A stretch of 64,000 bases of DNA from a virus: positions 1-64,000 of the IMG/VR virus record IMGVR_UViG_3300037222_000100, one strand, 5' to 3'. Under the pieces are notes generated by a model. It did not search any database. It had not been told where the DNA came from and saw only the letters and a list, made by a program, of their open reading frames with translations. Shown one piece after another: positions 5,306 through 36,440 of this stretch; position 1 is the stretch's first letter; each line of letters begins with the position of its first letter. The position numbers were made by a program, and so were the translations under genes.

Positions 5306-5317
5306 ACTCATTACCAC

Positions 5318-26299: not shown

Positions 26300-26360
26300 T
26301 TAGATGGGTCCCGTTCCATGATGTCACCCATTATGGGAGAGGTCGCGCCCGGATTGTTAG

Positions 26361-26429
26361 TCGCTCCCGCTGGAATCGAACCAGCGCCTAGAGGGTATGA
26401 TCCTCCTTGGCACCCATAGCCTGAGAGCG
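26361..26429 (-). tRNA. tRNA-Met or Ile2 (CAT)
   Basis: Acceptor CGCTCTC/GGGAGCG, anticodon loop ATCATAC, T-arm GCTGG-TTCGATT-CCAGC. D-arm is short. CCA not encoded. A CAT anticodon may read Met, or ATA if modified. Confidence 0.75.
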
Positions 26430-26565
26430 TGGCTTTCCCCTACCGCTTGCACGGGATAGCGGGTACTCGTGTAACACGTCATCTACGTGCTCCCTGATCC
26501 GGGGTGCGGCACATAGCAAGGATGACGTGAGTTAGAGCAGCGTCCTCTTGCGAAGGTCTGTTCTC

Positions 26566-26745
26566 CTAACCGTGTTTCTTCTGACCTGGCTCACCAGGTC
26601 CAAGAGGCTTACCAACGCGGGCGCGGTAGCGCTCGCACTTGGTTTTGTTGCGGCCCCACTTACGGTCGCCACCGCTTTTGCGGCGGTTGTTCCTTTTCAT
26701 CAACTTGGCGTGAGTTACGTCAAGCGGGTTTGCCCGATTGGGCAT
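26566..26745 (-). CDS. small basic protein, 59 aa
   Basis: ATG 26745 (MPNRANPLDVTHAK) is preceded by AAAGGAG at ideal spacing. More than one third of residues are Lys, Arg or His, so it likely binds nucleic acid. It is the last protein gene of the RNA array, with a three-codon leader frame just upstream. Family unknown. Confidence 0.7.
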   Translation of the reverse strand: MPNRANPLDVTHAKLMKRNNRRKSGGDRKWGRNKTKCERYRARVGKPLGPGEPGQKKHG

Positions 26746-26766
26746 GTGTATCTCCTTTGGCTAGGG

Positions 26767-26778
26767 TTACCTAGTCAT
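26767..26778 (-). promoter_or_regulatory. three-codon leader frame (ATG ACT AGG TAA)
   Basis: A strong AAGGAGG (26786-26792) lies 7 nt before this mini-frame Met-Thr-Arg-stop. The stop and a CTAGG/CCTAG hairpin come just before the SD of the basic protein. It could couple or attenuate translation, perhaps sensing the AGG codon for which a tRNA-Arg(CCT) is encoded at 32001. Confidence 0.4.
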
Positions 26779-26809
26779 GGGGATACCTCCTTGCGTTGGT
26801 TGATGTTGA

Positions 26810-26880
26810 AACGGATAGTCGGAATCGAACCGACATCAAGAGCGTGGAAGGCTCTTGTCATACCATTAGACCATACCCGC
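26810..26880 (-). tRNA. tRNA-Gly (TCC)
   Basis: Acceptor GCGGGTA/TATCCGT, anticodon arm AGAGC-CTTCCAC-GCTCT, T-arm GTCGG-TTCGATT-CCGAC, discriminator T as in bacterial Gly tRNAs. Confidence 0.9.
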
Positions 26881-26962
26881 AGGTGCGCCATATCGTCCTA
26901 TCATCCGTAGGTACGGCACACACCTACGTAGGCTCGTTTTCACCGCATGCTGTTACTCACGA

Positions 26963-27034
26963 AGCCCACTCTCGGAATCGAACCGAGTTCGCCGGTTTAC
27001 AAGACCGGAGCATCACCATTTATGCTTAGCAGGC
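26963..27034 (-). tRNA. tRNA-Thr (TGT)
   Basis: Acceptor GCCTGCT/AGTGGGC with GU pairs, anticodon arm CCGGT-CTTGTAA-ACCGG, T-arm CTCGG-TTCGATT-CCGAG. Its 5' end is only 4 nt from the RNase P RNA. Confidence 0.9.
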
Positions 27035-27038
27035 GAAT

Positions 27039-27423
27039 TGTATCGATAAGCCGGATTCTGTCATTGGACGATCATCCATCTCAGCCTTAGCTGCCGCCTC
27101 ACAACTGCGGTTCCCCAACCCGATATGACCGTAGGCTTTCCAACCCCTTCAATAGGTGGCCCGTTTTGCGGTATAGCCCTTGCGGACAACAAGCCTGCTC
27201 ATCGCAGACACGGCTTTCGCCATCAGGGGTACCACCGCCCTTAGGTTTCTCTGTATGGGTTTCATCCTCGACGCTTTGCGTGCGGTACAAACGCCTCTCG
27301 GCTCCCGCCTCTTTTCGCGATGTCTGTTGATCGCGGCTTCCTCAGCCGCAGACCGAGTTTCCTCGGCCAGGATGTCCGGACTTTCCTCTGGAGGGATCGG
27401 ACCTCCAGCGACCGTCTGATACA
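27039..27423 (-). ncRNA. rnpB: RNase P RNA
   Basis: About 385 nt. The 5' region has the conserved GAGGAAAGTCCGGAC (plus 27377-27393, read on minus) and the 3' region has GATGGATGATCGTCC, then GACAGAATCCGGCTTATCG; these are the universal bacterial RNase P core. The ends TGTATC and GATACA pair as helix P1. RNase P removes 5' leaders from tRNAs and normally works with a host protein subunit. It sits between tRNA-Gly (1-nt gap) and tRNA-Thr (4-nt gap) on one transcript, so cleavage at the tRNA-Thr 5' end would create its 3' end. Open frames across this segment are accidental. Confidence 0.92.
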
Positions 27424-27424
27424 G

Positions 27425-27494
27425 AGCGGTAGATGGGACTCGAACCCACAACCTCCACCATGGCTATAGTGGGTACCTCGCCTGAGGCTACCGC
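27425..27494 (-). tRNA. tRNA-Gly-like, probable GCC anticodon with enlarged loop
   Basis: Perfect acceptor GCGGTAG/CTACCGC with discriminator T, and T-arm GTGGG-TTCGAGT-CCCAT. The anticodon arm is CCAC(T)...(G)GTGG with an 8-10-nt loop containing ATAGCCAT instead of the usual seven. Acceptor and discriminator point to Gly; the anticodon reading is uncertain. Confidence 0.65.
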
Positions 27495-27599
27495 TGTTCC
27501 TACTGAATGTTCACGCACTGCCCAGGATGACCTCCGCCTGGAACCGCTCGTTGTTCTGCTTCGCACGCACGACGCTTAGCCCCTATGTCGGGTTGCCCT

Positions 27600-28259
27600 T
27601 CAGGCGTATTCGGCGGTTCGGCGGTTTCCGGCGTCACCTGTGATTCCCTCGGATTTACGGCTAAAGCGACCTTCCTTCCAATCGTTCAAAAGGGTGTACT
27701 CGTAACTCGTGATGTCTCCGTGGGCGATCAGGTCGAAGAGGACGGGCCTCTCCTCCTTCAAGCTTGCAACAAGGTGCTCTGCAATGTCCCTCTCGGCCTC
27801 CGTGAGGTAAGGCGCAATGGATTTGCCATTGCCGCCATCTCGTTTGTGCAGGTCCCGATGCCAACCGACGCAGGCGGGGATCGTGCAGAACGACCGAGGC
27901 GCGTAGCTGATGTAGTCTGGAAGCTCCAGCATCAGCCAGCGAGGAACGAAGTGGTGTCGTGTAATGCGGCCGTCGCACTCGCCCTCCTCGCCGTGGTAGC
28001 GACAGATAGGAGAATGCTGCGTGCCAAGTACGCGTTCCTTCTTGGCCTCGATCACATCATGCGGGATCAGCCCACTGCTGTGATTGAGGCGGTACAGGAC
28101 CGCTTTCGTGGAGAGGCGTTCATCGAGTAGATCATCGATGTCCGCGTCCTCGACCTCCGCGACGAGTTCTAGCTGCTCGACCGTAGCTTCGCCGTCATAC
28201 GAGTCGAACCAGTAGACCTGTCCCGTGACGGGATGGGTCCAATCTCGTGCTCGCGACAT
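27600..28259 (-). CDS. HNH-like nuclease-fold protein, 219 aa
   Basis: ATG 28259 follows TATACT by 6 nt (leaderless). The middle contains CRYHGEEGECDG, TRHHFVPRW and ACVGWHRDLHK, a Cys/His arrangement like a beta-beta-alpha-metal HNH fold. It is not one of the compact homing HNHs of this window and sits inside the RNA array, so it might act on RNA or DNA of the host. Function not established. Confidence 0.6.
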   Translation of the reverse strand: MSRARDWTHPVTGQVYWFDSYDGEATVEQLELVAEVEDADIDDLLDERLSTKAVLYRLNHSSGLIPHDVIEAKKERVLGTQHSPICRYHGEEGECDGRITRHHFVPRWLMLELPDYISYAPRSFCTIPACVGWHRDLHKRDGGNGKSIAPYLTEAERDIAEHLVASLKEERPVLFDLIAHGDITSYEYTLLNDWKEGRFSRKSEGITGDAGNRRTAEYA

Positions 28260-28265
28260 GCCTAC

Positions 28266-28271
28266 AGTATA
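28266..28271 (-). promoter_or_regulatory. -10 element TATACT
   Basis: Ends 6 nt before ATG 28259, predicting a leaderless message. Confidence 0.45.
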
Positions 28272-28285
28272 CAGCACACGTCAAG

Positions 28286-28357
28286 TAGCCCGACAGGGAG
28301 TCGAACCCTGGTTACGGCGCTGAGAACGCCGCGTTCTAACCGCTGAACTACCGGGCC
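28286..28357 (-). tRNA. tRNA-Glu (CTC)
   Basis: Acceptor GGCCCGG/TCGGGCT, D-stem GTTC/GAAC, anticodon arm CGGCG-TTCTCAG-CGCCG, T-arm CAGGG-TTCGACT-CCCTG. Confidence 0.9.
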
Positions 28358-28451
28358 ATACAGGGGAGCGCTCTACTGCTGACGCTACACGCCACAAGCA
28401 TCGCTGATCGGGCGATCCTTTCTTTCGTCGTAGTACTCCGACTTCAGACTT

Positions 28452-28502
28452 CGGTGACATGACAGGAATTGCACCTGCGACCTCTCCCCGTAAGGAGTGA
28501 AG
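28452..28502 (-). repeat. tRNA remnant (orphan T-arm)
   Basis: Directly 3' of tRNA-Ile(TAT) there is a hairpin CTCC...GGAG and a T-arm-like GCAGG-TGCAATT-CCTGT followed by CATGTCACC, but no partner acceptor strand or D-arm. It looks like a decayed tRNA. Confidence 0.35.
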
Positions 28503-28575
28503 TAGTCCCTCTCGGATTCGAACCGAGAACCAACCGCTCATAAGACGGGTGCTCTAACCATTGAGCTAAAGGACC
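28503..28575 (-). tRNA. tRNA-Ile (TAT)
   Basis: Acceptor GGTCCTT/AGGGACT, D-stem GCTC/GAGC, loop CTTATGA, T-arm CTCGG-TTCGAAT-CCGAG. Reads the rare ATA codon. One mismatch at the outer pair of the anticodon stem. Confidence 0.85.
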
Positions 28576-28603
28576 ATATGGGCCTCTCGCGAGGCCCAAG
28601 GGG

Positions 28604-28942
28604 TCAAAGATGCGATACCGCCTTTGGAGCAATTTCAGCCAAGGCCGGTGTTTGTGTTGTTTCGTTGTGCGTTGTCGTCCCACAGTCAATTTTGCTGACC
28701 CCGTAGTAGGGACGTTCGCCGTACCATGGTTCGCGATATGGTCGCGGATATGGTACTGGGTATGGGAGAGGATACGGTCGTGGAACCGAGATGGGCTGAT
28801 TCGCCAGTTCCTTCTTTAGGAGCCGAATGCAGTCCACCGTGGTCGGATTCCGACCGTGCCCTTTCCAGTCGAGCCCGCAGAGCGAGCAGACCGTCGATAC
28901 TGCGACGGGTTCAGGTTTGGTTGCTTTCTTTTGCGTTGCCAT
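28604..28942 (-). CDS. hypothetical protein with Pro-Tyr repeats, 112 aa
   Basis: ATG 28942 (MATQKKATKPE). A CSLCG zinc pair is followed by a tract of Pro-Tyr dipeptides (about residues 63-90) and a polar tail. It overlaps the previous gene by 32 nt. Low-complexity Pro-Tyr tracts are often extended linkers. Function unknown. Confidence 0.55.
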   Translation of the reverse strand: MATQKKATKPEPVAVSTVCSLCGLDWKGHGRNPTTVDCIRLLKKELANQPISVPRPYPLPYPVPYPRPYREPWYGERPYYGVSKIDCGTTTHNETTQTPALAEIAPKAVSHL

Positions 28943-29168
28943 GATTGGTGACGAGTCCCTTTGACACTTCACCGCGATTTTCTCGTTTCTCGGTCATGCC
29001 GCCCCAAACACGTCCACGGGCAGAGTCGAGCACATGGCCCGCCTGCGTCGTACTCATGTTGAGCGCGTGACTGATCTGCGGGACGGTACTGCCCTCAAAG
29101 TACATCTTGAAGGCATCGTATTCGCTCGCGTTGAGACAATACACCGATTCGATGTCTCGCCTCGCCAT
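28911..29168 (-). CDS. small helix-turn-helix protein, 85 aa
   Basis: MARRDIESVYCLN start with AAAGGAGG upstream. STVPQISHALNMSTTQAGHV resembles a sigma-region-4 or LuxR-type helix-turn-helix, so it may regulate transcription of the array. The C-terminus is charged. Confidence 0.6.
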   Translation of the reverse strand: MARRDIESVYCLNASEYDAFKMYFEGSTVPQISHALNMSTTQAGHVLDSARGRVWGGMTEKRENRGEVSKGLVTNHGNAKESNQT

Positions 29169-29205
29169 TTCACCCTCCTTTAGGATGTTGGTTTTGGTAA
29201 TGCAG

Positions 29206-29278
29206 GGTGGCCGGAGGGAATCGAACCCTCATCGCGTGGATCACAACCACGAGTTCTAACCGTTGAACTACGGTCACC
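29206..29278 (-). tRNA. tRNA-His (GTG)
   Basis: Anticodon arm CGTGG-TTGTGAT-CCACG, T-arm GAGGG-TTCGATT-CCCTC, acceptor GTGACCG/CGGCCAC with the His-specific extra G-1 opposite C73. One A-C mismatch in the acceptor. Confidence 0.9.
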
Positions 29279-29282
29279 ATGA

Positions 29283-29360
29283 TGCGCCGAGGGGTTTAGG
29301 TCCTTCCCCATCCGGGATTCGATGTACCCGTGCTCTTGAACCCGGTTGAGCTACCGACGC
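29283..29360 (-). tRNA. aberrant tRNA-like RNA, anticodon unclear
   Basis: Acceptor GCGTCGG/TCGGCGC (one GU) and D-stem GCTC/GAGC are good. The next arm is CGGG-TACATCGAAT-CCCG (10-nt loop) and the last is GGGG-AAGGACCTAAA-CCCC instead of a normal T-arm. It may be a rearranged or decaying tRNA, or a specialised tRNA-like RNA. Confidence 0.45.
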
Positions 29361-29362
29361 GA

Positions 29363-29437
29363 TGCCCCCTCTGGAAGTCGAATCCAGACTATGGACGGGT
29401 TTAGACCGTATCCCTCTGCCAATTGGGGTAAGGGGGC
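29363..29437 (-). tRNA. tRNA-Leu (probable TAA), short variable arm
   Basis: Perfect acceptor GCCCCCT/AGGGGGC, T-arm CTGGA-TTCGACT-TCCAG. Loop TCTAAAC gives TAA with C at position 33. The variable loop is only about 6 nt, unlike class II Leu tRNAs. Confidence 0.7.
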
Positions 29438-29546
29438 GTAAACCCTGCCGACTTGCCATTACTTGTCGCGCCCTGACGGGCGCAGTACAGTGGTTGGTTC
29501 ACTACTCGGCTGAACGAGCATCAGCGTCAAGTCGAATCAGGGCTAG

Positions 29547-29617
29547 CTGCGGGTCAGGGATTCGAACCCCGATTGACTGGTTCAAGGCCAGCGGTCCTGC
29601 CGTTGGACGAACCCGCA
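29547..29617 (-). tRNA. tRNA-Gln (TTG)
   Basis: Acceptor TGCGGGT/ACCCGCA with U1-A72 and G73 typical of Gln, anticodon arm GCTGG-CCTTGAA-CCAGT, T-arm with TTCGAAT. The end of the CDS 29554-29757 lies inside this gene. Confidence 0.85.
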
Positions 29618-29757
29618 AAGGATCGTTGCATCTGCGGATTCTTGACACGTAGAAGCTCCTCAGTCAGCATCCGCACAATACTGTATTTGTACCGATGGAC
29701 AGCGGTTTCACGTTCTTGCACGATCCGCTCGTGCCTCTTCTTGGTGATGAACCACAT
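29554..29757 (-). CDS. small basic protein, 67 aa, ending inside a tRNA gene
   Basis: ATG 29757 (MWFITKKRHERIV) is 6 nt after TATACT. The first 47 codons read as a basic helical protein; the rest is encoded by the tRNA-Gln(TTG) sequence and the TGA stop falls in its acceptor/T-arm boundary. The overlap would make translation and tRNA maturation compete on one transcript. Confidence 0.5.
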   Translation of the reverse strand: MWFITKKRHERIVQERETAVHRYKYSIVRMLTEELLRVKNPQMQRSFAGSSNGRTAGLEPVNRGSNP

Positions 29758-29763
29758 GGGTCC

Positions 29764-29769
29764 AGTATA
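29764..29769 (-). promoter_or_regulatory. -10 element TATACT
   Basis: Ends 6 nt before ATG 29757. Confidence 0.42.
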
Positions 29770-29776
29770 GCGAAAG

Positions 29777-29848
29777 CTGCGGGACAAGGATTCGAACCTC
29801 GATCCTCTGGCTCAGAACCAGATCACTTGCCGTTAGTACGATCCCGCA
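29777..29848 (-). tRNA. tRNA-Gln (CTG)
   Basis: Perfect acceptor TGCGGGA/TCCCGCA, G73, anticodon arm TCTGG-TTCTGAG-CCAGA, T-loop TTCGAAT. Confidence 0.9.
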
Positions 29849-29882
29849 ATGCGGCCCGGAAAGAATCTCCGGGCCAATTCTG

Positions 29883-29969
29883 TTACGACGTGAGACGCTC
29901 GACCGTCCAAGAGACTAGACCGGCGCTGAGCCAAGCGAGAACGCTACCGCCGCCTATGGTTACTGCCAT
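29883..29969 (-). CDS. membrane peptide, 28 aa
   Basis: ATG 29969 (MAVTIGGGSVLAW) preceded by GAGGGGG at good spacing, ending at TAA 29883. A single hydrophobic helix spans most of it. It lies between tRNA-Gln and tRNA-Met. Confidence 0.4.
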   Translation of the reverse strand: MAVTIGGGSVLAWLSAGLVSWTVERLTS

Positions 29970-29990
29970 GTTTCACCCCCTCAAAGGGAT

Positions 29991-30061
29991 AGCAGTCCCC
30001 GGATTCGAACACGGGCTCTCAAGGTTATGGGCCTTGAATGGTCACCAGACCACCTGACTGC
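29991..30061 (-). tRNA. tRNA-Met or Ile2 (CAT)
   Basis: Acceptor GCAGTC/GACTGC, D-stem TGGT/ACCA, anticodon arm CAAGG-CCCATAA-CCTTG. The T-stem has a one-base bulge. Second CAT tRNA of the array. Confidence 0.8.
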
Positions 30062-30064
30062 AAG

Positions 30065-30138
30065 TACTCTCCCTCGGATTCGAACCGAGACTGGACCGGG
30101 CTTGAACCGGCTTCCTCTACCAATTGGGATAGGAGAGC
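30065..30138 (-). tRNA. tRNA-Leu (CAA), short variable arm
   Basis: Acceptor GCTCTCC/GGAGAGT, anticodon arm GCCGG-TTCAAGC-CCGGT, T-arm CTCGG-TTCGAAT-CCGAG, 5-nt variable loop. Confidence 0.85.
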
Positions 30139-30260
30139 ATATACGAAGTGATTATGCTAACCTCACACATGCGCGAGGCGTAAATTTCCGGAGGAAGCAA
30201 CCGCTTTCGGTAGAGGCCCTAGGGGGTCCCCTCCAAATTTTTTGGCTACGATCAGCCGAG

Positions 30261-30335
30261 TCCTGTCGGGAGGATTTGAACCTCCGACTCCTCGCGTATC
30301 AGACGAGTGCTCTAACCAGACTGAGCTACGACAGG
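30261..30335 (-). tRNA. tRNA-Ile (GAT)
   Basis: Perfect acceptor CCTGTCG/CGACAGG, D-stem GCTC/GAGC, anticodon arm CTCGT-CTGATAC-GCGAG, T-arm GGAGG-TTCAAAT-CCTCC. Confidence 0.92.
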
Positions 30336-30482
30336 TAGTTTGGGACTCCGCCGCGTCACTTCGGCAGTTTCTAGCACCGGGGCTTAGTCCGGGTCCCGAG
30401 AGTGCAGAGCCGACGCAGGAATCGAACCTGCCGGACCCCGGTGCATGCACCTAGTCTGGACCCCAGTCGTCGCACTACACAG
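30336..30482 (-). other. structured segment with an orphan T-arm
   Basis: Contains GCAGG-TTCGATT-CCTGC but no clean acceptor, D or anticodon arm. GCACCGGGG and CCCCGGTGC (9 bp) with TCCGG/CCGGA can enclose it in a long stem. It is either a decayed tRNA or an unassigned structured RNA. Confidence 0.35.
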
Positions 30483-30556
30483 CGGACCCAGGCGGAATCG
30501 AACCGCCGACACCTGCCTTTTCAGGGCAGTGCTCTACCTGACTGAGCTACAGGTCC
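30483..30556 (-). tRNA. tRNA-Phe (GAA)
   Basis: Acceptor GGACCTG/TGGGTCC, anticodon arm CTGCC-CTGAAAA-GGCAG, T-arm GGCGG-TTCGATT-CCGCC. Confidence 0.92.
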
Positions 30557-30823
30557 CTACTTTTGCCCGGCCAAGATGTCTTCGACCTGATCGAGCACCT
30601 TGGGCATGGACTCCTCTACTTCGCAGTCGATGCACTTCTTGCTGCCTCTGATTGCACGCTTCACGCAATGAGGTTCCTCACAAAGGATTCTCGTGGGCCG
30701 CATGAACTCTGGAATGTCGAAGTCTTCTTGCATCTTCATCTTTCGTCGTCTCAGGCCCGCCAGCAGAACGATGATCGCGCCTCCAGCGAGGAGGTTCTTC
30801 TGCTCTTGGTACATGCCACCCAT
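30557..30823 (-). CDS. small membrane-anchored protein with Cys motif, 88 aa
   Basis: ATG 30823 (MGGMYQEQKNLLAGG) with an N-terminal hydrophobic helix (AIIVLLAGL), then a basic patch and CEEPHC...CIDC, a possible zinc site. Extended -10 TGCTATCAT is 10 nt upstream. Its TAG stop abuts the tRNA-Phe 5' end. Confidence 0.55.
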   Translation of the reverse strand: MGGMYQEQKNLLAGGAIIVLLAGLRRRKMKMQEDFDIPEFMRPTRILCEEPHCVKRAIRGSKKCIDCEVEESMPKVLDQVEDILAGQK

Positions 30824-30833
30824 TAGGCGACGG

Positions 30834-30842
30834 ATGATAGCA
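30834..30842 (-). promoter_or_regulatory. extended -10 promoter TGCTATCAT
   Basis: TGC-TATCAT ends 10 nt before ATG 30823. Confidence 0.45.
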
Positions 30843-30849
30843 CTTTCAG

Positions 30850-30934
30850 CGGAGGGACAAGGAATCGAACCCTCAGGACGCAAGCCCTGGCCTAGTTTTC
30901 AAGACTAGTTGCCGACCATTCAGCGCGGCCCTCC
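30850..30934 (-). tRNA. tRNA-Ser (TGA)
   Basis: 85 nt with a long variable arm; acceptor GGAGGG/CCCTCC, anticodon arm CTAGT-CTTGAAA-ACTAG, G73. Confidence 0.88.
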
Positions 30935-30986
30935 AGGAGCGGACCGCCCCGAGAGCCATTTCAGGCCGGGAGACGCTACCGCTCTA

Positions 30987-31057
30987 AGGCGTCGTCCGGA
31001 TTCGAACCGGAGTGAGTCGGGTTGCAGCCAACTGCGTAGCCTCTCCGCCACGACGCC
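30987..31057 (-). tRNA. tRNA-Cys (GCA)
   Basis: Perfect acceptor GGCGTCG/CGACGCC with U73 typical of Cys, anticodon arm GTTGG-CTGCAAC-CCGAC, T-arm TCCGG-TTCGAAT-CCGGA. Confidence 0.92.
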
Positions 31058-31063
31058 AATGTA

Positions 31064-31420
31064 CTACAGCACTACAAGACCTTCTTCGACCTCGGTGTGA
31101 CAGTTGCCGCAGAGAAGAGCACACTTCGCGGCCTCTGCCTGAACCGTCTTCCAGGCGCGAGTAAATCCCTTGGCCGCAATGCCAAAGGACTTCGTGGTCG
31201 GATCGAGATGATGAAATTGAAGAGCACCTTCGCACCGATCATACCCACACACTTCACATCGACCACCATGTTCTGCGACTAATTTCCGCTTGATCTCGCG
31301 TCGCTTCTCAGCGATGCGGTCGCTCTCGCACGGACGACAACGCCAACTGTTAGCGGCGTCAGGTCGCCTCCAATGAGACACGTCGCCGTGCCTCTTGCAG
31401 GTCTTGATCTGTTGCTCCAC
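31064..31420 (-). CDS. HNH homing endonuclease
   Basis: Best start is GTG 31420, 7 nt after TGGTATAAT; an ATG at 31429 overlaps that -10. The 118-aa protein has an N-terminal CKRHG...CRPC pair and the HNH core CEVCGYDRC, LQFHHLDP and LCGNCHTEVEE. It is a paralog of the proteins at 8933 and 33623. Confidence 0.82.
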   Translation of the reverse strand: MEQQIKTCKRHGDVSHWRRPDAANSWRCRPCESDRIAEKRREIKRKLVAEHGGRCEVCGYDRCEGALQFHHLDPTTKSFGIAAKGFTRAWKTVQAEAAKCALLCGNCHTEVEEGLVVL

Positions 31421-31427
31421 CTGTGGC

Positions 31428-31436
31428 ATTATACCA
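31428..31436 (-). promoter_or_regulatory. extended -10 promoter TGGTATAAT for HNH gene
   Basis: TGG-TATAAT ends 7 nt before GTG 31420. Confidence 0.5.
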
Positions 31437-31457
31437 TGGTGTACGCCAGACTTGTAG

Positions 31458-31532
31458 CTCACGGCGCTGGAATCGAACCAGCCTCATACTCGGGTAACAG
31501 CCGAGCGCATTCGCCTTGATTGCTAGCCGTGA
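31458..31532 (-). tRNA. tRNA-Asn (GTT)
   Basis: Perfect acceptor TCACGGC/GCCGTGA, G73, anticodon arm CTCGG-CTGTTAC-CCGAG, T-arm GCTGG-TTCGATT-CCAGC. Confidence 0.92.
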
Positions 31533-31545
31533 ATGCAGAGGAAGA

Positions 31546-31764
31546 TCACTCTTCCTCGTCCAGCTTGATGCAATTTGCGCAGTTACACAGCGCGGGCCGA
31601 CCTACTCCTCGCTCGCCTTCATGCGTCAGGCTATGGAGAGGGGCTGACCTACGAGTTCCTCGCTTGGGATGGATGCTCTTGATGCGCTCGTTGAGCACGG
31701 GGCATCGATAGAGATGCCCCTGTCCCGATGGGTACGACTTGTGACAGTACGAGCACCAATCCAT
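31546..31764 (-). CDS. small Cys/His protein, 72 aa
   Basis: ATG 31764 (MDWCSYCHKSYPSGQ) lies 6 nt after TGATATCCT. CSYCHK near the start, a third Cys in the middle and CNCANC near the end suggest zinc binding. Acidic tail. Family unknown. Confidence 0.55.
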   Translation of the reverse strand: MDWCSYCHKSYPSGQGHLYRCPVLNERIKSIHPKRGTRRSAPLHSLTHEGERGVGRPALCNCANCIKLDEEE

Positions 31765-31770
31765 GTGGAT

Positions 31771-31779
31771 AGGATATCA
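31771..31779 (-). promoter_or_regulatory. extended -10 promoter TGATATCCT
   Basis: TGA-TATCCT ends 6 nt before ATG 31764. Confidence 0.42.
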
Positions 31780-31788
31780 GAAATGAAG

Positions 31789-31873
31789 CGGAAGGTGTGG
31801 GATTCGAACCCACGGTGGCTTTCACCACGCCGAGTTAGCAACCCGGTACATTCGGCCTCTCTGCCAACCTTCC
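31789..31873 (-). tRNA. tRNA-Ser (GCT)
   Basis: Perfect acceptor GGAAGGT/ACCTTCC, G73, anticodon arm CCGGG-TTGCTAA-CTCGG, long variable arm, T-arm GTGGG-TTCGAAT-CCCAC. Confidence 0.92.
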
Positions 31874-32000
31874 AAATGGTGGACGTGCCCGGACCAGAGG
31901 CCCGAAAACTTTTGCCCTTTCGTGCTGGTATGTTCGTCACATTCAGCCGGGTTACCATACCAGTGGTACCCAACCTGATTCAGGGCATTCTGTACGTCCA
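31874..32000 (-). other. spacer with a hairpin and an uncertain short frame
   Basis: An 8-bp inverted repeat CTGGTATG/CATACCAG is present. A TTG-started frame of about 59 codons crosses the segment into tRNA-Ser, but it has no ribosome site and is not called. Confidence 0.3.
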
Positions 32001-32073
32001 AGCCCTTGGCGGGATTCGAACCCGCGCAAACCCGCTTAGGAACCGGGCACTCTGTCCGCTGAGTTACAAGGGC
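32001..32073 (-). tRNA. tRNA-Arg (CCT)
   Basis: Perfect acceptor GCCCTTG/CAAGGGC, loop TTCCTAA, T-arm GCGGG-TTCGAAT-CCCGC. Reads AGG. Confidence 0.9.
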
Positions 32074-32084
32074 GTACTACGAAG

Positions 32085-32490
32085 TGGACCCTGTGGGAAT
32101 CGAACCCACGTCTCCGGCATTCGTATTGCGTTACTATCTAGCAGCTTTGGGACAGGCTTGGCCCGTCTCCACCACTCGGTTTACGTCCGAGAACGGCACC
32201 GGGCCGAAGCCCGACTGATGCACCACCTGGTTTGAGTCCAGGAACTTGTCGCGGGGTGCTACCAACCGTTTTCTGTTCCGAGGCGTACGGTGACCCGGCT
32301 CTGACTAAACCAGAGCGAGAGTTGCCTCGCGAGCCGAGAGCGACGGGGAGTGCCCCGGTACGGGGTCTTCCATGAAGCTCGCGGGGATCGCGAGGGTGTC
32401 TGTGTTGCCTGTTATGGCTTGTGTCAGGTAGGTGTGACGACCGCTGCGTAACAACAACCGAGTCTTACCAGATCGATACCTGTAAGGCCC
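32085..32490 (-). ncRNA. ssrA: tmRNA (ribosome rescue)
   Basis: 406 nt. The 5' end GGGCCTT pairs with 3' AGGGTCC as a tRNA-like acceptor. The 5' part reads ACAGGTATCGATCTGG, matching the tmRNA D-loop consensus GGTTTCGAC; the 3' part has GAATGCCGGAGAC then T-arm GTGGG-TTCGATT-CCCAC, close to actinobacterial tmRNAs. A frame ending ...REATLALV-TAG has its stop (32305-32307) in the loop of hairpin CTCTG/CAGAG, as in known tag-stop hairpins. Several GC hairpins fit pseudoknots. tmRNA frees stalled ribosomes and tags the peptide; the resume codon could not be fixed by eye. Confidence 0.88.
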
Positions 32491-32629
32491 ATGCGGGGGC
32501 GAGGCTAGATAGCACCCCGCCCGCCGATGCTACTCGACTAACTGGGTACTGCCTGGATCACCCCCTGTAAGTTGAAGGACAAGGTAACCTCAGATGGCCC
32601 GTCTAGAAAGGGCGAAGTCAGCTACCTAG
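32491..32629 (-). other. leader between tRNA-Val and tmRNA
   Basis: No convincing gene. It holds GC-rich inverted repeats and a promoter candidate just before the tmRNA. Confidence 0.4.
32506..32514 (-). promoter_or_regulatory. possible tmRNA promoter TGCTATCTA
   Basis: TGC-TATCTA ends 15 nt before the tmRNA 5' end, allowing a short leader to be removed by RNase P. Confidence 0.35.
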
Positions 32630-32701
32630 TAGACGATACTGGATTCGAACCAGTGACTTCCACGTTGTCACCGTGGCGCTCTCCCACTGAGCTAATCGTC
32701 T
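32630..32701 (-). tRNA. tRNA-Val (GAC)
   Basis: Perfect acceptor AGACGAT/ATCGTCT, D-stem GCTC/GAGC, anticodon arm CCACG-GTGACAA-CGTGG, T-arm ACTGG-TTCGAAT-CCAGT. Confidence 0.92.
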
Positions 32702-32771
32702 AGGCTGCCCGTTGCCACTGGTAGTCTAGTCCAGATGCCGGGCTCTCCACAGGCATTCAACCTGGGAGCAG

Positions 32772-32842
32772 TACTCGGTGAAGGAATCGAACCTTCGTCG
32801 TCACGGTGTAAACGTGATGCTAAACCACTCAGCTAACCGAGC
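32772..32842 (-). tRNA. tRNA-Val (TAC)
   Basis: Acceptor GCTCGGT/ACCGAGT, anticodon arm TCACG-TTTACAC-CGTGA, T-arm GAAGG-TTCGATT-CCTTC. Confidence 0.92.
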
Positions 32843-32898
32843 ATGTGCCCGCCCACAGAGGGACAGGCATCGCACGCCGGGCGAACCCTAAACGTGAG

Positions 32899-32972
32899 CG
32901 GGACCTACCGGACTCGAACCGGCGACCTCTGCCGTGACAGGGCAGCGCTCTAACCAACTGAGCTAAGGACCC
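32899..32972 (-). tRNA. tRNA-Asp (GTC)
   Basis: Acceptor GGGTCCT/AGGTCCC (one mismatch), D-stem GCTC/GAGC, anticodon arm CTGCC-CTGTCAC-GGCAG, T-loop TTCGAGT, G73. Confidence 0.92.
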
Positions 32973-33051
32973 AAGGGTGCCCCTGCGGGAGTCATCGTAT
33001 TGGGGATGACGGGCAGGGGACTTGTATGCAATTGGCCGATCTAGTCGGCAG

Positions 33052-33116
33052 CGGGGCGAGAAGGAATCGAACCCTCGCCTGCGGGTTTGGAATCCGCAGG
33101 TCCATCCAGGCGTCCC
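33052..33116 (-). tRNA. short tRNA, anticodon CCA (Trp-like)
   Basis: About 65 nt with a reduced D-arm. Anticodon arm GCGGA-TTCCAAA-CCCGC, T-arm GAGGG-TTCGATT-CCTTC, acceptor with two mismatches. A fuller Trp tRNA is at 33563, so this copy may be degrading or specialised. Confidence 0.65.
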
Positions 33117-33124
33117 GATTACTT

Positions 33125-33526
33125 TTACTGCGCAATCCCGCAAGCGGTCTTGATTTCGTCAATGATGTTCAGTGGAACGTGAGAAATCTGTTCAAATTCT
33201 GTAGCCGTGTAGAGAGCGGTAAGATGTTCCGTGGAACAGATGGCCTGCTGTTCAGTAAGAATGGGGGTCTTTTCCTTTTCGATCTTCCTCCGAAGTTCAA
33301 GGCTTCGTGTCGAAGACCAGGAACCTTCCTTACCAAGAAATCCTTCGCCTTGCTTAGGATGGGGTACGGCTACAGCTTCCTTCTGAAGTTCCTTTGAGGC
33401 GTGCGTCAAGCCACTCGTAAGTGCATTGACTACACGTTCCCGCTCAACTTCGTATCCAGCGAAGAAGCCAATACCACCTGCGACTAGCACTGCTACGACG
33501 ATGAGGAGCTTCGCTTTGGTTGTCAT
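33125..33526 (-). CDS. membrane-anchored protein, 133 aa
   Basis: MTTKAKLLIVVAVLV starts an N-terminal transmembrane helix (about residues 7-25) followed by a soluble helical domain with ICSTEHL and TACGIAQ. TAGACT lies 6 nt before ATG 33526. It might act in the cell envelope; no family recognised. Confidence 0.6.
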   Translation of the reverse strand: MTTKAKLLIVVAVLVAGGIGFFAGYEVERERVVNALTSGLTHASKELQKEAVAVPHPKQGEGFLGKEGSWSSTRSLELRRKIEKEKTPILTEQQAICSTEHLTALYTATEFEQISHVPLNIIDEIKTACGIAQ

Positions 33527-33532
33527 GCCCGT

Positions 33533-33538
33533 AGTCTA
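33533..33538 (-). promoter_or_regulatory. -10 element TAGACT
   Basis: Ends 6 nt before ATG 33526. Confidence 0.42.
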
Positions 33539-33562
33539 CCGAACCACCGCTTGCTTGTCAAG

Positions 33563-33631
33563 CGGGAGATCGAGGAATCGAACCCCGTCCTAGAGTTTTG
33601 GAGGCTCCTTGGCTGCCATAGCCTATCTCCC
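33563..33631 (-). tRNA. tRNA-Trp (CCA)
   Basis: Perfect acceptor GGGAGAT/ATCTCCC, G73, loop CTCCAAA, T-arm with TTCGATT. Its first 9 nt encode the end of the upstream HNH gene. Confidence 0.88.
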
Positions 33632-33952
33632 TCGTTGATACGTGCGCTCCCTGTGACAATTGGCGCAGACGACTTCGCACTTGGCGATCTCTGCCTTGAT
33701 TGTATCCCATGCCGCTGCAATCTTGGCAAAGCGGCTAACCTCACATCTCTTCTCTCCGCGTACATGATCGAACTCCATCACGTAGTAGGGGTAGGCCACC
33801 TTGCAATCAGCACATGGGCGATCCTTGGCCTCACGGATGAGACGCTTCTGAGCCTCTATTCTGACCCTTTTACGGGCCAGAAGAACTTCACGATTGTCTT
33901 TCTGGTACTGACGTTGATACTCGATCTTGGCTGTGCCTTCAAGCGCCATCAT
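33623..33952 (-). CDS. HNH homing endonuclease
   Basis: 109 aa. CADCKVAYP, MEFDHVRGEKR and VCANCHRERTYQ give the HNH core, with a basic N-terminus. The TAG stop lies within the tRNA-Trp acceptor strand, so the gene is inserted directly against a tRNA. Paralog of 8933 and 31064. Confidence 0.82.
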   Translation of the reverse strand: MMALEGTAKIEYQRQYQKDNREVLLARKRVRIEAQKRLIREAKDRPCADCKVAYPYYVMEFDHVRGEKRCEVSRFAKIAAAWDTIKAEIAKCEVVCANCHRERTYQRGR

Positions 33953-34009
33953 CAGTTATGTAGGAGAAGGTCATGGTTTTATTTGGTCACCATGACCTTC
34001 ACCCCAAGA

Positions 34010-34070
34010 GGCCGGAGTCTGACGAAGTACTCGCGGGGTGATCAACTCCCCGACCGCTCCTCGTCCGGCC
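34010..34070 (-). ncRNA. tRNA-like mini-RNA, unassigned
   Basis: One base after tRNA-Thr(CGT), a 61-nt segment closes with GGCCGGA/TCCGGCC and contains hairpins CGGGG/CCCCG and GAGT/ACTC. The shape recalls a tRNA with reduced arms, but no anticodon is clear. Between this and the HNH gene lies another hairpin GGTCATGG/CCATGACC. Confidence 0.35.
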
Positions 34071-34071
34071 A

Positions 34072-34143
34072 AGCCAACACTCGGAGTCGAACCGAGTTCT
34101 CTCGCTTACGAAACGAGTGCATCACCAAGAATGCTTTGCTGGC
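34072..34143 (-). tRNA. tRNA-Thr (CGT)
   Basis: Acceptor GCCAGCA/TGTTGGC, anticodon arm CTCGT-TTCGTAA-GCGAG, T-arm CTCGG-TTCGACT-CCGAG. Confidence 0.92.
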
Positions 34144-34265
34144 ATAGAACACAAGAGAGTGGCCCGGCAAACCCTGGTGACGGCGAAGGGGAGAACACCA
34201 CATTCACCCTTGAACTTCGACCGCAATGGTGTCCACGACATCTACTGGCGGACCTCCTGTGTTCA

Positions 34266-34337
34266 AGCCCACGTCGGGAATCGAACCCGAACCTCATCCT
34301 TACCATGGACGCATGCTACCTTTAGCACCACGCGGGC
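34266..34337 (-). tRNA. tRNA-Thr (GGT)
   Basis: Acceptor GCCCGCG/CGTGGGC, anticodon arm CGTCC-ATGGTAA-GGATG, T-arm TCGGG-TTCGATT-CCCGA. Confidence 0.9.
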
Positions 34338-34343
34338 ATCAAA

Positions 34344-34391
34344 GACCCGGCCGCATACCCCAGGTACCTGGGACAGAGGCGGGACCGGGCC
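34344..34391 (-). repeat. structured repeat, copy A
   Basis: 48 nt closing with GGCCCGG/CCGGGTC, then CCGC/GCGG and a terminal palindrome CCCAGGTACCTGGG. A second copy at 36038 keeps both outer arms and differs in the tip. Confidence 0.6.
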
Positions 34392-34567
34392 GTACAACAG
34401 TCCTGTCCATGAGCCCTACGGCTGACGACAGGAGCGCTCCGTCCGCGATCCCTCTACCGGGGGCCGACCGAGCAATAGGCAAGGAGTAACCCGCCCTGAG
34501 GACGCTAGCGAGGTTAGATCGCGTCCACCACAGGGCTCACGCCTCGTGTTTCGTGTGTCACTCCTAG
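34392..34567 (-). other. unassigned structured segment
   Basis: No convincing coding frame. Two strong stems: CCCTG-GGACGC with GCGTCC-CAGGG, and CCTGTC/GACAGG enclosing AGCC/GGCT. Could be an unknown small RNA. Confidence 0.35.
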
Positions 34568-34641
34568 TCAGGATAGGAGGATTTGAACCTCCGCCCTCTT
34601 CGTTCCGAACGAAGCGCGCTACCAAGCTGCGCCATACCCTG
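34568..34641 (-). tRNA. tRNA-Pro (CGG)
   Basis: Acceptor CAGGGTA/TATCCTG, anticodon arm CTTCG-TTCGGAA-CGAAG, T-arm GGAGG-TTCAAAT-CCTCC. Confidence 0.92.
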
Positions 34642-34787
34642 TAGATGCCGCATCGGGTAGACAGGTCCTTGCAGAATCCGCCTACGGCCTGGTGGCCGTG
34701 CGCAACTCATTCGGGACCCGTTACTTTCGATGTCCTCCGGGTCATGAGTCCCGTTGGATACGTCCCTCGCGATGGGATTTCCGACAG

Positions 34788-34882
34788 TGCGCAAGACGGG
34801 ATTCGAACCCGCATTCGCTGGTGTGAAAAACCAGTGCTGTGGAGACTGTTTGACGGCCTCTCTACCGTTCAGCTACTCACGC
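34788..34882 (-). tRNA. tRNA-Glu (TTC) with about 20-nt D-loop insertion
   Basis: Acceptor GCGTGAG/CTTGCGC, anticodon arm CTGGT-TTTTCAC-ACCAG, T-arm GCGGG-TTCGAAT-CCCGT. D-stem GCTG/CAGC encloses about 30 nt, containing ACGG/CCGT and GAGA/TCTC stems, instead of 8-10 nt. Total 95 nt. Confidence 0.82.
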
Positions 34883-34945
34883 ATGTGCTGAGCCAGGCTT
34901 GGCCTCAGCGTGGATGGACATTTGAGTCTGCCATCGATCAGACTA

Positions 34946-35017
34946 TCGGGAATGCAGGAGTTGAACCTGCGCTAGAGCGTTCCAAACGCCCGGTGCGGCC
35001 ACCAACACTTATCCCCG
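34946..35017 (-). tRNA. tRNA-Pro (TGG)
   Basis: Acceptor CGGGGAT/ATTCCCG, anticodon arm GGGCG-TTTGGAA-CGCTC, T-arm GCAGG-TTCAACT-CCTGC. Confidence 0.9.
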
Positions 35018-35060
35018 TAGTCGGCACGGGTTACCATGCCGAGGTCATACCGGTTGCTAC

Positions 35061-35363
35061 TTATTCGACAGGCGGCTCGACCGGCGCTGGCGGAGTTACT
35101 GCATCGTCAAGTGCAGTCGTGTTCGCCTCAACCTGAGATGTGCTTGCCGTGACCGTCGTCGTAGCCGCATCGACTGCGGCCTGAGTTGGGTCGTTCGTGA
35201 TCTTGTCAACGGCTGCGGTGACGGCCGTCGTGTTAGCCGCTACAGCGGCTTCGTTGGCGGCAACTGCCGCCGTGAGTGCATCGGTGTTTGCCACTAGCTT
35301 CCTCTGTTCTCGTAGTAGTTGCTCCAAAATCTCATGCTGAGATTTATGGCGTCTGTATTCCAA
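35061..35363 (-). CDS. Ala/Thr-rich coiled-coil protein, 100 aa
   Basis: TTG 35363 is preceded by AAGGAGG 5 nt away and avoids running into tRNA-Ala. A charged helix (EILEQLLREQRK) leads into repeating AANxxAVAAN/TTAVTA units and a Pro-rich tail (PPAPVEPP). Such repeats form long coiled coils. Function unknown. Confidence 0.65.
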   Translation of the reverse strand: MEYRRHKSQHEILEQLLREQRKLVANTDALTAAVAANEAAVAANTTAVTAAVDKITNDPTQAAVDAATTTVTASTSQVEANTTALDDAVTPPAPVEPPVE

Positions 35364-35389
35364 TAGACCCTCCTTGATTGGATGGGCAG

Positions 35390-35462
35390 TGGACCTGGAG
35401 GGACTTGAACCCTCTACCTCCTGCTTGCAAGGCAGGCGCTCTCCCAGATGAGCTACAGGCCC
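35390..35462 (-). tRNA. tRNA-Ala (TGC)
   Basis: Acceptor GGGCCTG/CAGGTCC, D-stem GCTC/GAGC, anticodon arm CCTGC-CTTGCAA-GCAGG, T-arm GAGGG-TTCAAGT-CCCTC. Confidence 0.93.
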
Positions 35463-35486
35463 ATACGGCACCCCTGTTCTGAGCCT

Positions 35487-35666
35487 TTATCTCTCAGCCA
35501 GGTGATGCCAAATGCCCCCGTGGAGAATCGAACTCCAGCATCCGGGGTAAAAGCCCGGCGGTCTACCACTAACCATACGGAGGCGAAGGCCCAGACCAGA
35601 GCGTAGACGCTTCAATGCTTTCGGCTCCACGTCTACGGTTAGCCTGGGGTGCTGCATCATACTCGT
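35487..35666 (-). CDS. possible small protein overlapping tRNA-Lys
   Basis: An in-frame ATG near 35657 opens MMQHPRLTVDVEPKALK, which reads like protein for about 27 codons, then passes through tRNA-Lys to a stop at 35487. No ribosome site or -10 is evident; the end shown for the start is approximate. Confidence 0.25.
   Translation of the reverse strand, partial: TSMMQHPRLTVDVEPKALKRLRSGLGLRLRMVSGRPPGFYPGCWSSILHGGIWHHLAER
35513..35584 (-). tRNA. tRNA-Lys (TTT)
   Basis: Acceptor GCCTCCG/CGGGGGC, anticodon arm CCGGG-CTTTTAC-CCCGG, T-arm TGGAG-TTCGATT-CTCCA. Confidence 0.9.
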
Positions 35667-35693
35667 GTGTCGTTTGCCGGAGTCATGTCCGGA

Positions 35694-35768
35694 TGCGGCC
35701 CGTGGGACTCGAACCCACAAGCGACACGTTCTAAGCGTGCCAGGTATACCAATTCCCGTCAGAGCCGC
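35694..35768 (-). tRNA. tRNA-Leu (TAG), short variable arm
   Basis: Acceptor GCGGCTC/GGGCCGC, anticodon arm GCACG-CTTAGAA-CGTGT, T-arm GTGGG-TTCGAGT-CCCAC, variable loop of about 5 nt. Confidence 0.85.
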
Positions 35769-35906
35769 GTGTCCTCCTGCTCTCGATGCTAGGAGGGGTA
35801 CTCTTCTGTATTCATTCTTCGACATCGAGAGCGTGCCGTCCCATCAACTCCCTGATTGGGTGGGCTAGGGAGGCCATCGGTCTTACACCCTAAAGACGAT
35901 TCTTGA

Positions 35907-35989
35907 TGCGCAGGGAGGGAGTCGAACCCTCACGAGCTTTCGCCCACCACGTCCTCAACGTGGCGTGTCTACCATTCCACCACCAGCGC
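35907..35989 (-). tRNA. tRNA-Leu (GAG), long variable arm
   Basis: 83 nt; acceptor GCGCTGG/CCTGCGC, anticodon arm CCACG-TTGAGGA-CGTGG, typical class II variable stem GGGC-GAAA-GCTC. Confidence 0.92.
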
Positions 35990-36037
35990 GGGTGATTATC
36001 ATAATGCCTCGCATACGCGAGGGCAAAATTTTTCAAG

Positions 36038-36086
36038 GACCCGGCCGCATACTCTGTCCATGGACGAGCAGAGGCGGGACCGGGCC
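36038..36086 (-). repeat. structured repeat, copy B
   Basis: 49 nt with the same outer arms as copy A at 34344 (GGCCCGGTCCCGCCTCTG and GTATGCGGCCGGGTC) but a different tip palindrome GTCCATGGAC. It lies just after tRNA-Tyr in transcript order. Confidence 0.6.
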
Positions 36087-36093
36087 ACTACAG

Positions 36094-36171
36094 TGCCAGC
36101 GGAAGGAATCGAACCTTCTTGCCGAGGCCACGGGTTTACAATCCGCTATCACTCCATGTGATCTCGCTGGC
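36094..36171 (-). tRNA. tRNA-Tyr (GTA)
   Basis: Perfect acceptor GCCAGCG/CGCTGGC, loop TTGTAAA, longer variable arm, T-arm GAAGG-TTCGATT-CCTTC. Confidence 0.9.
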
Positions 36172-36337
36172 ATGCTAGTTGGGTCCTTGATCTCCGGGCG
36201 CGATCCGACGAGCAACTTGATCCCACGCCACTACGCGTTTCGGGATCATGCGGTATGGTTACCGCTGCACTCAAGGGGTTTGCCCCAACTTGGAAGGCGT
36301 TGAATATGTACGGTGCCTTCTGTGCCGTTCGACGGGG
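36172..36337 (-). other. structured leader or possible small RNA
   Basis: No gene recognised. Starting at an extended -10 (36338-36346), the RNA would contain hairpins GGGG/CCCC, GCGGTA/TACCGC and GATCCC/GGGATC in series before tRNA-Tyr. Confidence 0.35.
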
Positions 36338-36346
36338 ACTATAGCA
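36338..36346 (-). promoter_or_regulatory. extended -10 promoter TGCTATAGT inside the RNA array
   Basis: TGC-TATAGT, same as in front of several protein genes, but no start codon follows; likely drives tRNA-Tyr and those beyond. Confidence 0.5.
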
Positions 36347-36367
36347 GATGCTCTGCTTCCCGTCTAG

Positions 36368-36440
36368 AGCCCCGTTCGGGAGTCGAACCCGATGATCGCG
36401 CTTTAGAAGAGCGCTGCCTTTTCCGTTTGGCTTACGAGGC
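36368..36440 (-). tRNA. tRNA-Arg (TCT), first of the array
   Basis: Acceptor GCCTCGT/ACGGGGC, anticodon arm GCGCT-CTTCTAA-AGCGC, T-arm TCGGG-TTCGACT-CCCGA. A promoter with TTGTTT, 16-nt spacer and TGTTATCAT lies at about 36448-36475. Confidence 0.92.

Follow-up and report, generated by a model that had tools for sequence, protein, structure and literature searches.

A putative bacterial-type RNase P RNA embedded in a phage tRNA array and its counterparts in other phage sequences

The 64,000-nucleotide stretch analysed here (the window), part of the 167,869-base virus record IMGVR_UViG_3300037222_000100, carries on its minus strand an element of 385 nt (27039-27423, P1 to P1) whose sequence supports its identification as an RNase P RNA (RPR) in a phage record, with a catalytic core that is predicted to fold and covaries among relatives. 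We propose that this RPR is a functional bacterial-type ribozyme which would be excised from a tRNA array by tRNA processing and borrow the host RnpA protein to mature phage tRNAs, a reading that we regard as likely. On balance, we also favour the view that it represents an undescribed class of viral RPRs in large phages of many lineages, which would have been acquired from bacteria on multiple occasions, be self-released as array segments, use host RnpA and have been repeatedly eroded towards catalytic-domain-only forms of ~210-270 nt, the smallest natural bacterial-type RPRs.

Identification of the RPR

The initial annotation had assigned an RNase P RNA to 27039-27423, and this assignment was confirmed, coordinates included, by a covariance match to Rfam RF00010 at 27031-27427 that covers the whole model (model positions 1-367). 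The Infernal/Rfam check suggested in that annotation gave 46.2 bits and an E-value of 1.6e-12 when 2.5 kb was searched, yet the score falls short of the curated gathering threshold of RF00010 (100 bits); with the whole 168-kb record searched, the E-value was 2.5e-14. The low score can be attributed to the erosion of the specificity domain. Because the score lies below the threshold, a default Rfam gathering-threshold scan of the window returned tRNAs only and missed the RPR, while RF00010 appears with an E-value threshold, and this blindness of the default scan partly explains the missing annotation. Blastn matches of the region in Vibrio phages were rejected as RPR relatives, because tRNA-Thr alone was aligned.

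The two universal core segments described in the initial annotation are present as exact CR-I and CR-V sequences, and the P1 closing helix that it reported (TGTATC/GATACA) closes exactly at 27423 and 27039. The parts of the RPR, in 5' to 3' order on the minus strand, are as follows.

27418-27423, minus strand: P1 5' strand TGTATC, with its partner GATACA at 27039-27044; replaced in relatives
27388-27408, minus strand: P3 hairpin CTGGAGG-TCCGATC-CCTCCAG; three pairs with two-sided change among relatives
27374-27388, minus strand: CR-I, the P4 5' strand with bulged U, GAGGAAAGTCCGGAC, read from the sequence; identical in L034 and L036
27351-27368, minus strand: P8 hairpin with GAAA loop; covaries among relatives
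27333-27349, minus strand: P9 hairpin; covaries among relatives
27269-27368, minus strand: reduced specificity domain, ~100 nt; consensus region deleted in the Rfam alignment
27263-27268, minus strand: P5 3' strand AGGATG, with its partner CATCCT at 27369-27374; four pairs with two-sided change among relatives
27137-27236, minus strand: ~100-nt insertion at the P17 tip, seen in alignments; absent from L034, L036 and L286
27113-27121, minus strand: L15 GGGTT motif and P15 3' strand, read from the sequence; GGT at the matching place in the phage relatives inspected
27094-27110, minus strand: P18 hairpin; four pairs with two-sided change among relatives
27066-27081, minus strand: J18/2 and P2 3' strand, AGATGGATGATCGTCC, read from the sequence; closely conserved in relatives
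27047-27062, minus strand: CR-V, the P4 3' strand, GACAGAATCCGGCTTA, read from the sequence; identical in L034 and L036

The window RPR contains helices P1, P2, P3, P4 (with the bulged U), P5, P15 (with a GGU loop), P17 and P18. Absence of the P4/P15 core had been named in the initial annotation as evidence against an RPR; both helices were found by helix comparison with relatives, P15 having just 3 bp in the window RPR. In bacterial RNase P, this core comprises the catalytic site and the contact with the substrate 3'-RCC, in which the GGU of L15 pairs with the tRNA 3' RCC. P7, P10-P12, J11/12 and J12/13 were not recognised in the Rfam alignment and the helix audit, in which just the P8 and P9 hairpins were found, and the short P5-P8 interval leaves little space for a P6 pseudoknot. 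We therefore class the predicted RNA with bacterial RNase P RNA (clan CL00002) in a variant form, since its catalytic domain fits the definition, and not as a canonical class A RPR, since its specificity domain is strongly reduced.

Covariation among phage relatives

We compared the helices of the window RPR with those of the RPRs in three other records (L034, L036 and L286), the pairwise identities of the four being 55-73%. Two-sided changes with pairing kept were found at 28 of the 53 core helix positions. Pairing was seen in 203 of 203 cells versus 78-79% when strands were swapped between sequences; the helices were picked by hand, so this perfect pairing is partly by construction, which does not apply to the two-sided changes. 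P1, for instance, is replaced by TGTAGTC/GACTACA and by TCAATTGC/GCAATTGA in relatives. CR-I and CR-V are invariant in the three closest RPRs and P4 pairs in all four, while P8 with a GNRA loop is common to the compared RPRs and P9 is visible in three of them. These two-sided changes, together with the invariant CR-I and CR-V, indicate selection on a structured RNA rather than decay. When single RPRs were folded by minimum free energy, the long-range core was not recovered, an outcome to be expected with RNase P, and these folds carry no evidential weight.

The RPR is retained in both relatives whose records span this region. Its neighbours include tRNA-Thr(tgt) in L034 and L036, and tRNA-Gly(gcc) and tRNA-Thr(tgt) in L286.

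Genomic context of the window RPR

Portal, terminase and DNA polymerase genes lie in the window, and the record as a whole also encodes a primase, a helicase, a UvsX-like recombinase and tail fibre proteins; the RPR lies in a long tRNA array.

26360-36440, minus strand for all 32 genes: tRNA array of 32 ARAGORN genes covering all 20 amino acids
26963-27034, minus strand: tRNA-Thr(tgt), 4 nt downstream of the RPR (spacer 27035-27038), found by ARAGORN and Rfam
27425-27494, minus strand: tRNA-Gly(gcc)-like gene, 1 nt upstream of the RPR, 19.9 bits
36872-37621, minus strand: RNA ligase adjoining the tRNA array (PF09414, E = 3.4e-12)
1868-5317, minus strand: 1149-aa protein combining a GNAT domain with a CCA-adding enzyme at the C-terminus (PolyA_pol, RNA-binding and HD), from Pfam profile matches

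The spacers of about 1 nt (tRNA-Gly) and 4 nt (tRNA-Thr) given in the initial annotation were both borne out; the tRNA-Gly, however, is weak, its covariance score being low and ARAGORN leaving it uncalled. With its very short D loop and odd anticodon arm, this gene is possibly degenerate. Its counterpart in L034 is clear and intact (59.7 bits), and the tRNA-like gene that occupies this position in L279 scores low as well (26.8 bits). Inside the array, a 225-aa reading frame (27600-28277) is without a known family, and no relatives of it were found.

CCA is encoded in none of the 32 window tRNAs, and in nearly all of them the discriminator base is followed instead by U or by C and then U. A CCA-adding enzyme was found in 9 of the 16 RPR records tested, among them that of the window, in which the first ~450 residues of the 1149-aa protein are without a Pfam family match. 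No RnpA (PF00825) was found in the whole 168-kb record or in 40 other RPR records (0/41), and host RnpA is for this reason the presumed partner.

RPRs in other phage sequences

IMG/VR was scanned with CR-I and CR-V patterns followed by a joint filter, random CR-I matches without CR-V being dropped. This yielded 66 RPR loci, 32 of them with five or more tRNAs in the stretch retrieved; these 32 correspond to 30 non-redundant array RPRs including those of the window and phage A3Wally, that is, 29 in public phage sequences besides the window. RF00010 was matched by all 41 IMG/VR records tested, and 28 of them exceed 100 bits. With one profile, terminase was detected in 16 of 33 RPR records, including records of 463, 369 and 363 kb whose RPRs sit in or beside tRNA arrays.

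Tight junctions recur among the array RPRs. In 18 of the 30, the 60 nt before CR-I include the end of a tRNA, and in 19 the 30 nt after CR-V include the start of one; at least one abutting tRNA is present in 25, tRNAs abut on both sides in 12, and none was detected in the remaining five. Measured from P1, most upstream spacers have 0-3 nt and most downstream ones 3-7 nt, the automatic P1 finder being wrong for L036, L117 and L130 and the P1 of L036 having been set by eye. The flanking pair differs by group: Gly(gcc)/Thr(tgt) in the window group and Cys/Gly(tcc), Thr(ggt)/Gly(gcc), Leu(cag)/Arg(tcg) or Arg(ccg)/Arg(cct) elsewhere. As a control, no abutting tRNA was found at 75 bacterial rnpB loci; this control was drawn with one CR-I variant and the array set was chosen for having tRNAs, so that the contrast concerns tightness within arrays and not frequency.

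The distance from CR-I to CR-V is 144-208 nt in several phage RPRs versus 231-447 nt (median 318) in the 75 bacterial ones, and comparison with RF00010 indicated that canonical full-length RPRs also occur in phage arrays. The shortest distance, 144 nt, was observed in a 191-kb record (L070, 10628-10787), in whose RPR the specificity domain seems to lack its 3' half and P15-P17 seems incomplete; this RPR may be a truncated copy or an extreme form. Two terminase-encoding records, of 372 and 497 kb (L076 and L132), have identical RPRs away from tRNA arrays, the nearest tRNA being 9.8 kb away in the former and none being present in the fetched stretch of the latter.

Some matches were set aside. 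The record named Microcystis phage MaAM05 (L281, MW495066.1) has fabI, engB and mtgA as neighbours and a bacterial-looking rnpB, and is probably bacterial DNA; the match in Acinetobacter phage MD-2021a, with coaD/integrase neighbours, is likely bacterial DNA as well. Unannotated gut 'Bacteriophage sp.' matches were left out.

RPRs were also found in cultured phages. Blastn with a phage RPR identified an RPR of A3Wally (MZ150783.1, 194,724 bp; L280) at 93,852-94,072 (72 bits, E = 6.6e-21), located in the gap between two annotated tRNAs, where the record shows no feature. Big4 (ON637770), Zooman (OK040793) and one more record carry RPRs of this type with 91-92% identity. A3Wally, Big4 and Zooman are cultured Microbacterium foliorum phages in which the unannotated RPR, ~213 nt, lies between two tRNAs, and these three named phages provide a laboratory system in which a bench test is possible now. 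HNH endonuclease genes are interleaved in the tRNA array of A3Wally (L280, 1255-1728 and 2382-2744), one of them just before the RPR-bearing part.

In a quick tree with 75 bacterial RPRs, the array RPRs were scattered among Actinomycetota, beside Burkholderiales and elsewhere; the tree has long branches, and only this scatter is used here. At least eight label changes were needed, at least two of which are forced by well-supported branches. A long-branched group comprises 13 array RPRs, including the window group and A3Wally, and this grouping is insecure. We read the scatter as suggesting that phage RPRs were acquired from bacteria more than once.

Proposed pathway and alternative explanations

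Since the 1-nt upstream gap leaves no promoter space between the genes, the RPR is most probably transcribed together with the tRNAs, barring a promoter within an upstream gene. We propose that it is transcribed as one segment of a long tRNA-array transcript. The RPR would obtain its 3' end when any RNase P cuts at the 5' end of tRNA-Thr, and its 5' end through 3' maturation of the preceding tRNA; since the tRNA-Gly of the window is weak, release of the 5' end may differ here. The freed RPR would then bind host RnpA and, together with the phage CCA-adding enzyme, mature the many CCA-less phage tRNAs during infection. The recurrence of tight junctions in unrelated phages gives good anatomical support to the self-processing loop put forward in the initial annotation; the cleavage step of that loop is the conjectural part. 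Host RNase P could also perform all the cleavage, including release of the RPR. The reading of the RPR as a functional ribozyme is the best explanation of the observed homology, compensatory helices, junction geometry, recurrence, absence of RnpA and presence of a CCA-adding enzyme, from which we infer transcription, excision, partnership with RnpA, catalysis and a benefit to the phage.

We consider it unlikely that the RPR is instead a decoy or remodeller, which would bind host RnpA and starve or redirect host RNase P, thereby inhibiting host tRNA maturation. The catalytic core carries the RnpA-binding surface in established RNase P structures, and it is this core that is retained where the specificity domain is reduced, as in several phage lineages; the phages are without RnpA, hence the host protein would be engaged in either reading. 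However, the bulged U of P4 and the substrate contact of L15 GGU are kept though unneeded for protein binding, and placement in tRNA arrays and co-occurring CCA-adding enzymes suggest tRNA maturation.

It is quite improbable that the RPR acts mainly in cis, or just on its own array, as a self-excising segment that resolves tight tRNA junctions with little activity in trans. Such a role would agree with spacers too short for separate leaders and with the recurrence of tight junctions in unrelated phages, but canonical full-length RPRs too sit in phage arrays, the RPR is far from any tRNA in some phage records such as L076, and all RNase P RNAs known to us act in trans.

Less credible still is a captured host rnpB in decay, carried as a functionless passenger. 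The sub-threshold Rfam score, the 100-nt P17 insertion and the seeming truncation of certain other phage RPRs (L070) point in this direction; against this, the core helices do not break freely among close relatives, the four-RPR comparison having found the opposite, with helices preserved through two-sided changes and CR-I and CR-V invariant in the closest relatives, and many phages have an RPR at the same kind of junction. Finally, an assembly chimera of host rnpB and a phage contig is extremely improbable for this metagenome record, even if some other RPR matches in IMG/VR and phage collections do look bacterial, because the independent records L034 and L036 have the same neighbours, and it is refuted for the phenomenon as a whole by the unannotated RPRs in cultured Microbacterium phage genomes.

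Comparison with known systems

Among the founding ribozymes, RNase P RNA, which trims tRNA 5' ends, was regarded as a gene of cells and organelles. Our results suggest that some viruses bring an RNA catalyst for tRNA maturation beyond tRNAs alone, that phage RPRs include natural bacterial-type RPRs with much of the specificity domain gone, and that placement in an array gives a simple account of RPR expression without its own promoter or terminator. The initial annotation held that phage RPRs are rarely described; 'not described' would be nearer within the open-access literature searched. No description of a phage-encoded RNase P RNA was found there, subscription papers and most preprints being outside its scope and priority uncertain. 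RNase P is unmentioned in the main text of a huge-phage survey (PMC7162821), as is phage-encoded RPR in the other RNase P papers examined, including PMC4919922.

The phage RPR and the type A RPR (RF00010, rnpB) have in common CR-I and CR-V, the bulged U of P4, P1-P2-P3, P5, P15-P17 with L15 GGU, P18 and J18/2. Unlike type A rnpB, the phage RPR lies in a tRNA array without promoter room at the junction, has a reduced specificity domain, is accompanied by no RnpA, linked or unlinked, and scores under the curated cut-off of the family. In the archaeon Pyrobaculum, a natural RPR has nearly no specificity domain and has kept the catalytic domain (PMC4919922, PMC12974513), a loss and a retention that the phage RPR shares; that RPR, however, is archaeal and chromosomal, whereas the phage RPR is of bacterial type with P18 and is eroded in more than one phage group. 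The catalytic domain of Escherichia coli alone cleaves substrates with and without the C5 protein (PMC5839562). This engineered domain is a laboratory construct, whereas the phage RPR, known here from sequence, would be a natural counterpart with P8/P9-like remnants.

The tRNA clusters of T4-type phages are matured by host RNase P, and processing of the T4 Pro-Ser precursor by RNase P prefers a 3' CCA (PMC11143913), which fits the carriage of a CCA-adding enzyme by phages. T4-type clusters and those of RPR phages are alike in having pre-tRNA spacers of a few nucleotides and in not encoding CCA. T4 is known to rely on host RNase P, whereas the RPR phages encode an RNase P RNA themselves and, in many cases, a CCA-adding enzyme too.
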